A stretch of DNA of 44,427 nt. Source: Oscillospiraceae bacterium (GTDB lineage: Bacteria; Bacillota; Clostridia; Saccharofermentanales; Saccharofermentanaceae). How positions within the stretch are numbered: position 1 is the stretch's first letter; every line of letters starts with the position of its first letter. The stretch is from positions 1 to 44,427 of the forward strand of contig CACZML010000004.1 in NCBI GenBank assembly GCA_902782235.1. The letters run 5' to 3'. A model generated the notes under the pieces. The model made no database searches and was not told where the DNA came from. It saw only the letters and a program-made list of their open reading frames with translations. This document shows positions 36,488 to 38,096 of this stretch, in pieces. The translations under genes were made by a program, and so were the position numbers.

Positions 36488-36805
36488 TTATTTGATCTTT
36501 ACTTCAATAGAAACGCCTGCAGGCATGTCAAGCTTGCCAATGTCATCCATCGTCTGGGAAGACGGTGTATAGACGTCGATGATTCTCTTGTGTGTTCTCT
36601 GCTCGAACTGCTCACGAGAATCCTTGTTTACGTGAGGTGAACGAAGGATCGTAACTACCTCTTTCTCTGTAGGGAGCGGGATAGGACCGGAGAAGCTTGC
36701 ATCGTCACGAGCAAGTGCGTCTACGATAAGCTTTGCGCTCTCGTCGAGAATCTTGTGATCATAAGCCTTGAGCTTAATTCTGACCATTGTTGTCTTTGTT
36801 GCCAT
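36488..36805 (-). CDS. rpsJ: 30S ribosomal protein S10
   Basis: A 105-residue protein that also takes part in NusB-NusG antitermination. [20 protein letters not shown] and [23 protein letters not shown] are diagnostic. The ATG at 36805 has TAAGGAGG nine bases upstream; a longer frame upstream has no ribosome site. It is the first gene of the S10 operon. Confidence 0.98.
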
Positions 36806-37130
36806 TTTGTTGGCCTCCTTACTATAAGCTGTATTTCTTTTTCTCAACCCTGTCGGGAGTGTCTTGGCTTTCCATTCAAAAACCCAGACTATCCAGTTAC
36901 CTCCTTAAGGCGGCACTTTGGTTCTCTGGGCAGTAAATTACTGCTTCGACTCTCCGGACTTTAGGTCCCGAGACGGCATCGGATCGTATCCTCTGCCTTC
37001 GGCTCCTTCGAAGTTCCCCACCTCGTAAGATATCGCGCAGCCGGCGCCTTACCTCGTGGCAATCTCCGTTATCAAAGCCTTATCACCCGTGCTAAAGGGC
37101 AGAATTATCCCTATTTAGACGCGTGCGAAA
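36806..37130 (-). promoter_or_regulatory. long structured leader of S10 operon, candidate autoregulatory RNA
   Basis: About 320 bases of predicted untranslated RNA between the promoter and rpsJ. It is GC-richer than the intergenic DNA around it and holds several complementary segments, for example GTAAG-GCGC with GCGC-CTTAC (37025-37052), GGAC with GTCC (36956-36968) and GCAGTAA with TTACTGC (36930-36944). The element ACGAGGT occurs twice, flanking the first hairpin. No T-run terminator is present. I matched it to no known riboswitch, tmRNA, RNase P or SRP RNA. By analogy to the E. coli S10 leader it may be bound by an operon product such as L4. Confidence 0.6.
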
Positions 37131-37133
37131 GGT

Positions 37134-37162
37134 ATTCTACTATCTTGTTTTGTGATTTGCAA
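37134..37162 (-). promoter_or_regulatory. S10 operon promoter
   Basis: On the minus strand TTGCAA (37157-37162), 17 bases and TAGAAT (37134-37139). It lies just 28 bases downstream of the hslO stop, so the ribosomal operon has its own start even if hslO transcription reads through. Confidence 0.75.
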
Positions 37163-37190: not shown

Positions 37191-38096
37191 TTATGTGTTT
37201 TTCAGCTCATCGGGCTGAAATACATATTTACTGTTGCAAAATCTGCATACTGTCTCTACCGGCTTGCCGTCTTTTGTGATCTCTTCAAGATCATTTTTGC
37301 CTAGTGCCGCAAGGCCTGAAAGCATTCTTTCCCTGCTGCAGTTGCACTTGAATTCAACTTCCTGTCCATCCAGGTACTTAAGGTCAGGATCACCCATGAA
37401 AAGGTCGATTATCTGTGCGGGAGTAAAACCTTCCTTGAGAAGGAATGATATCTCGGGGAATCCGGACGCCCTTTTCTCAAGATATGAGATCTCGTCCTCA
37501 CCGGCTCCCGGAAGAAGCTGGACCATAAGACCGCCAGCTTCAGATACCTCGCCGCCTTCAATAAGCACGCCAAGGGAAACAACGGATCTGGTCTGTTCTG
37601 ATTTGGCAAGATAATAAGCAAAGTCTTCGGCGATCTCACCGGAAACCAGCTCGGAAACACCGACATAAGGCTCTTTTAATCCGATATCCCTGATAACCGT
37701 AAGGCTCCCCTTGCCTACTGCCGCACCGACATTGATCTTGCCGGGCTTATGATATTCGGTGGGAACGACAGATTCCATGGGATAAGCCCTTACCTTGAAG
37801 CCGAAATCAGTAACACATGTCATGCCTTCGAGCGGACCGTCGCCTCTGATTATCGTAGTCTGGGTATCACCGGCATTCTTCATTGATTCTGAGATAAGAA
37901 GGGATCCTGTCATGAATCTTCCCAGTGCAGCAGTTGCTGCGGGAGTCATCTGATGCATGATCCTGGCAGTCTCGCATACTTTTCTGGTGCTTACGCAAAG
38001 ACACTTAACAAGACCATTCAGGCCTTCGGCTCTTACAATATGGTCTTTCTTCAAATCTTCGGGCGCACCCGGAACGTAATACACGTTATCTGCCAT
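37191..38096 (-). CDS. hslO: 33 kDa redox-regulated chaperone Hsp33
   Basis: A 301-residue cytoplasmic holdase chaperone activated by oxidation. The C-terminal zinc centre has the paired cysteines CNC and CRFC. The N-terminal body includes TRKVCETARIMHQMTPAATAALGRF. It follows the methyltransferase gene by 23 bases; a purine-rich AGGAAG site precedes the ATG. No terminator is seen after its stop, so transcription may continue into the S10 operon. Confidence 0.96.
   Translation of the reverse strand: MADNVYYVPGAPEDLKKDHIVRAEGLNGLVKCLCVSTRKVCETARIMHQMTPAATAALGRFMTGSLLISESMKNAGDTQTTIIRGDGPLEGMTCVTDFGFKVRAYPMESVVPTEYHKPGKINVGAAVGKGSLTVIRDIGLKEPYVGVSELVSGEIAEDFAYYLAKSEQTRSVVSLGVLIEGGEVSEAGGLMVQLLPGAGEDEISYLEKRASGFPEISFLLKEGFTPAQIIDLFMGDPDLKYLDGQEVEFKCNCSRERMLSGLAALGKNDLEEITKDGKPVETVCRFCNSKYVFQPDELKNT

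Follow-up and report, generated by a model that had tools for sequence, protein, structure and literature searches.

The S10 operon has a central place in ribosome synthesis. The leaders of ribosomal protein operons repress expression when a ribosomal protein is in excess (PMC7247131). The S10 leader of E. coli acts through L4 and NusA-assisted attenuation, and L4 regulates both transcription and translation there (PMC10931766). Another family, S10-Clostridia (RF03136), has been described as the S10 ribosomal-protein leader of Firmicutes, with many examples in Clostridia (PMC7247131). In the literature surveyed we found no statement on the binding of an S10-operon protein by the RF03136 leader and no account of S10-operon control in Clostridia. 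Here we analysed the stretch preceding the S10 operon in a window of 44,427 nucleotides (the whole stretch of DNA under study), and we find that it is a real, conserved and structured leader RNA.

Extent and features of the leader

The leader lies between rpsJ, which is followed by rplC, rplD, rplW and rplB, and hslO (HSP33/Hsp33, minus strand), which ends at 37191. An earlier note on this DNA had placed a strong promoter 28 bases past hslO and some 320 untranslated bases before rpsJ. The promoter-like site was located at that place, and its predicted transcript start near 37127 would leave about 322 untranslated bases. Calling it strong is less straightforward, since its 9 of 12 consensus matches are by themselves only moderate, while a site with the identical 17-base spacer is present in all 24 closest relatives, where the distance from the -10 element to the ATG is 321-332 bases. 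Because the site recurs with the same spacer in all these relatives, a leader of about 322 bases, as predicted from the promoter position, is credible. The nearest named genomes are Saccharofermentans together with Clostridia and Ruminococcaceae genomes, mostly MAGs. The leader RNA folds at -108.9 kcal/mol against -91.1 ± 5.0 for shuffled sequences (z = -3.61), a value reached by 0 of 100 shuffles. The features discussed below are the following, in the order of transcription:

37134..37162, minus strand: predicted promoter, TTGCAA-17-TAGAAT
36974..37082, minus strand: domain 1, the aptamer-like domain assigned to S10-Clostridia (RF03136)
37009..37068, minus strand: P1 and P2 region, with covarying pairs
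37038..37042, minus strand: apical loop GGCUG, candidate 5' strand of a pseudoknot
36975..36997, minus strand: P4, the second RF03136 hairpin, from the RF03136 match and the clade alignment
36951..36973, minus strand: local hairpin CUCGGGAC/GUCCGGAG, lineage-specific, with a compensatory change at the pair 36967-36957
36930..36944, minus strand: hairpin GCAGUAA/UUUACUGC, carrying the mid-leader CAG element and adjoining the distal hairpin
36842..36930, minus strand: distal domain, outside RF03136, recognised by model R2
36878..36887, minus strand: 3' arm CUGGG and UUUUU tract of a terminator-like hairpin, from the CCCRG/CYGGG pairing
36827..36831, minus strand: pre-SD element CAGCU, candidate 3' strand of the pseudoknot, from complementarity and covariation
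36814..36818, minus strand: Shine-Dalgarno sequence GGAGG of rpsJ
36488..36805, minus strand: rpsJ (Ribosomal_S10), first gene of the S10 operon, with its start at 36805

Relationship to the S10-Clostridia family

At the Rfam gathering thresholds the search returned no match in the window, and to that extent the claim that no known riboswitch pattern is visible holds; it fails in a permissive search, in which all 81 positions of RF03136 were matched at 36970-37083 on the minus strand (14 bits, E = 3), so that the full model lies directly upstream of rpsJ on its coding strand. The score is below the gathering cut-off of 35.1 bits, a threshold set by the curators. At the corresponding place before rpsJ, five genomes of the same genus exceeded this score and many more had sub-threshold matches, and the clade of the window (24 genomes with S10 proteins 93-100% identical) was missed by that search. 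At E ≤ 0.01, RF03136 was found in 191 of 291 class-level genomes. For a covariance model (R1) we aligned domain 1 from 40 relatives, none of them in the clade of the window. R1 matched the window with 45 bits (E = 5e-10), and it also matched, at the RF03136 position, each of 15 class-level RF03136 loci absent from its training (E from 3e-13 to 0.002, most below 1e-4). Because a model made without the clade of the window finds both the window and accepted RF03136 loci, the leader is, on this homology, a diverged member of the S10-Clostridia family and not the distinct class that had been suggested. The clade of the window has drifted below the Rfam cut-off and is missed through the score threshold. 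We also observed that the 35.1-bit cut-off loses most of the same-genus and same-order leaders that are correctly placed before rpsJ. As a separate observation, two rpsJ genes with different leaders (L103, G026:C108; L104, G026:C94) occur in one genome (G026), at 64% and 85% identity to that of the window; the genome is 81% complete with 4% contamination, and contamination is the probable cause.

With RF03136 the leader shares its position before rpsJ, a domain 1 of two hairpins (P1/P2 and P4), a conserved internal loop and the GGAGC linker, and R1 detects both. P1 is formed in the window by five pairs (37068-37064 with 37013-37009), and P2 by 37059-37056 with 37021-37018 and 37052-37048 with 37029-37025; the internal loop between them is near-invariant, being AUUG/GGAA in the window and AUUG/GGUAA in most relatives. 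The repeated ACGAGGT element pointed out earlier is real, and its copies (37057-37051 and 37026-37020) are the two sides of one stem, namely the P2 strands CCAC-GAG-GUAAG and CUUAC-GAG-GUGG around a symmetric GAG/GAG internal loop. Unlike RF03136, the P2 of the window has a long insert containing this GAG/GAG loop and the GGCUG apical loop, and the 81-position model contains neither the distal domain nor the pairing between loop and pre-SD element described below. Covariation in homologous upstream regions had been named as a check on the leader; double changes occur among relatives at 7 of the 10 alifold pairs of P1/P2, the P2 pairs covary even inside the 24-member clade of the window, and the distal stems covary as well. 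The earlier note's reading of it as a structured S10-operon leader is supported, with covarying stems, and the leader is most likely cis-regulatory.

The comparison with E. coli has to be made with this homology in view. Both leaders are long and structured, precede the same operon and contain a terminator-like hairpin; the homology detected for the present leader is with RF03136. A control of the E. coli type, with L4 binding a leader homologous to the enterobacterial one, has in its favour that L4 is encoded in the operon and that the dual-level control of E. coli S10 by L4 provides a precedent (PMC10931766). We consider it very unlikely nonetheless, as the homology points to the S10 leader described for Firmicutes and as local alignment of the leader with 16S and 23S rRNA gave scores equal to those of shuffled sequences. 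The same scores led us to reject rRNA mimicry at the sequence level. The expectation that this leader would differ from that of E. coli is supported to the extent that no sign of the E. coli type was seen.

A conserved distal domain

Downstream of domain 1 the leader has a second domain, whose hairpin, CCCAG..CCA..AAGUGC..GGUAAC..UGG..CUGGG, is directly followed by a U tract. The outer stem CCCRG/CYGGG is paired in all 91 parsed leaders of the genus and order and shows a compensatory change from A-U to G-C with G-U intermediates; the middle stem changes from CCA/UGG to CCG/CGG, and the apical stem covaries freely, the conservation of the whole domain being at least that of domain 1. A second model (R2), made from the distal domain of 39 same-genus leaders including the window, matches nearly every same-genus genome that has the leader, normally once per genome, and matches held-out genera of the same family with E values from 5e-15 to 3e-19, the order-level matches being weaker. 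In other orders R2 matches 3' of the RF03136 match on the same contig and strand (for example, in G210, G141, G209, G120, G132 and G240), which makes the distal domain part of the leader well beyond this order; the 81-position Rfam model stops short of it. The strings AUUGC/GGUAAC of domain 1 and AAGUGC/GGUAAC of the distal domain agree, but their pairing registers are one apart, and a single internal-loop module used twice is no more than a side remark.

The earlier note had seen no terminator, whereas the hairpin CCCAG...CUGGG with UUUUU at 36930-36878 is terminator-like and was overlooked by the consensus scan because its loops are too large for that scan. Regulation mainly by transcription attenuation, in which CCCRG...CYGGG-UUUUU would be an intrinsic terminator favoured by a protein on domain 1, has to be weighed at this point. 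In the genus and the order alike the hairpin and its U tract are retained (pairing in 91 of 91 parsed leaders), the median folding energy of stretches that end at CYGGG is about -20 to -26 kcal/mol (-17.8 for the hairpin of the window alone), and the rplJL and L20 leaders of B. subtilis are a precedent for attenuation (PMC10931766). As a candidate intrinsic terminator, CCCAG/CUGGG with UUUUU combines a U tract with a short stem that has internal loops. Against this mechanism, only five uninterrupted pairs stand beside a U tract of 4-5 bases, no antiterminator pairing was identified, and the roughly 35 bases that follow the U tract match the hairpin in conservation, for which a pure terminator would have no use. 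We regard attenuation as the main mechanism as a possibility, and a somewhat doubtful one.

Those 35 or so bases (window 36842-36882, minus strand) are an observation of their own, for no pairing accounts for their conservation. They contain the conserved GAAUGG and ACUCCCGACAGGGUUGA in the window, and AAACGCCCGG..GGUUGA in relatives. Two further readings were tried and set aside. A competitor to the distal hairpin, in which CYGGG would pair with a downstream RCCCGG, suits many leaders by eye but is broken in several (L021, L022 and L026) and partly in the clade of the window, and the reading of GUUUUUGAAUGG as similar to a NusB/S10 boxA was dropped as not conserved at the order level.

Probable pairing of the apical loop with the ribosome-binding site

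Bases in the P2 apical loop complement an element that immediately precedes the rpsJ Shine-Dalgarno sequence, the 3' end of CAGCU lying 8 bases before the GGAGG core. Among 43 representatives, loop and pre-SD element pair better within than between sequences (equalled in 4 of 20,000 permutations, which, like all such counts here, ignore the tree and overstate significance because related sequences are not independent, so that they should be read as counts and not as probabilities), and two control windows showed no such within-sequence excess in this test. A larger set comprised 62 representatives drawn from 134 leaders, and 59 of the 62 have CAG before the Shine-Dalgarno sequence. In 44 of these 59 the base preceding CUG and the base following CAG form a Watson-Crick pair, against 32.2 ± 2.4 expected (0 of 20,000 permutations), and the base following CUG and the one preceding CAG do so in 40, against 34.4 expected (99 of 20,000). 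The combinations of loop and pre-SD element include GCUGC:GCAGC, UCUGC:GCAGA (found in more than one family) and GCUGU:ACAGC, and leaders without CUG (L012-L014) have AAGCU loops opposite a pre-SD AGCUU. The CAG before the Shine-Dalgarno sequence is absent in three order-level representatives, one of which has GUAGC instead, and the proposed helix in the window has just five pairs, one of them G-U. These patterns argue for a probable pseudoknot of the apical loop onto the ribosome-binding site. Alifold also suggested that GUUG pairs locally with the pre-SD CAGC; this is not favoured, as GGUUGA is unchanged where the element becomes GCAGA.

The loop could also have another partner. The CAG element in the middle of the leader shows covariation with the loop as well (56 of 20,000 permutations on 30 sequences), mainly in the order-level group, and because of this the loop may have two alternative partners. 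That the mid-leader CAG would be the real partner, the pre-SD CAGC being conserved for some other reason, we hold to be unlikely: in the genus and in the family it is the pre-SD element that covaries with the loop (2 of 20,000), the signal for the mid-leader element not being significant, and leaders with a UCUGC loop (L065, L072 and L075) keep a pre-SD GCAGA with no match to CUGC in mid-leader. As a further observation on long-range pairing, in other orders (L202, L203, L207, L208 and L209) the segment after P4 (for example, ACUGUACA) and a segment after the distal domain (for example, GUGUACAGU) show complementarity over 8-10 bases; this putative helix has weak permutation support (888 of 20,000) and is absent from the Rfam model.

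A long structured 5' untranslated region might only stabilise the mRNA or tune its translation without any feedback, and strong structure is indeed what the sequence by itself demonstrates. Conservation throughout a class, covariation over a long-range contact to the ribosome-binding site and internal loops that hardly vary nonetheless make this quite improbable in our judgement. We consider it likely instead that the leader is an autoregulatory element of the S10 operon, with a protein-bound domain 1, a contact between loop and pre-SD element that hinders translation of rpsJ, and possibly attenuation in addition. Domain 1 would be the most likely binding site for a ribosomal protein from the operon; protein in excess would hold it in a fold that pairs GGCUG of the apical loop with CAGCU, this pairing near the Shine-Dalgarno sequence would hinder initiation of rpsJ translation, and some transcripts may additionally end early at the distal hairpin and its U tract. 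The homology, the covarying helices, the conserved distal domain and the covariation of loop and pre-SD element are observed, and from them we infer the protein binding, the direction of control and the division between translation and attenuation. A more elaborate version, in which the leader would be a two-state switch whose apical CUG loop alternates between the mid-leader CAG and the CAGC beside the Shine-Dalgarno sequence of rpsJ, and in which the distal domain would be a second functional module shared across the class, is tentative and rather unlikely; no description of such a two-state architecture for translation control was found for S10 leaders in the literature surveyed.

While the class itself is known, the leader adds to the Rfam model a conserved distal domain and a candidate pseudoknot. 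The pairing proposed between the leader and the ribosome-binding site is concrete and testable by simple mutants. A known Rfam family is thereby extended by a conserved second domain, and its score threshold is shown to miss whole clades.
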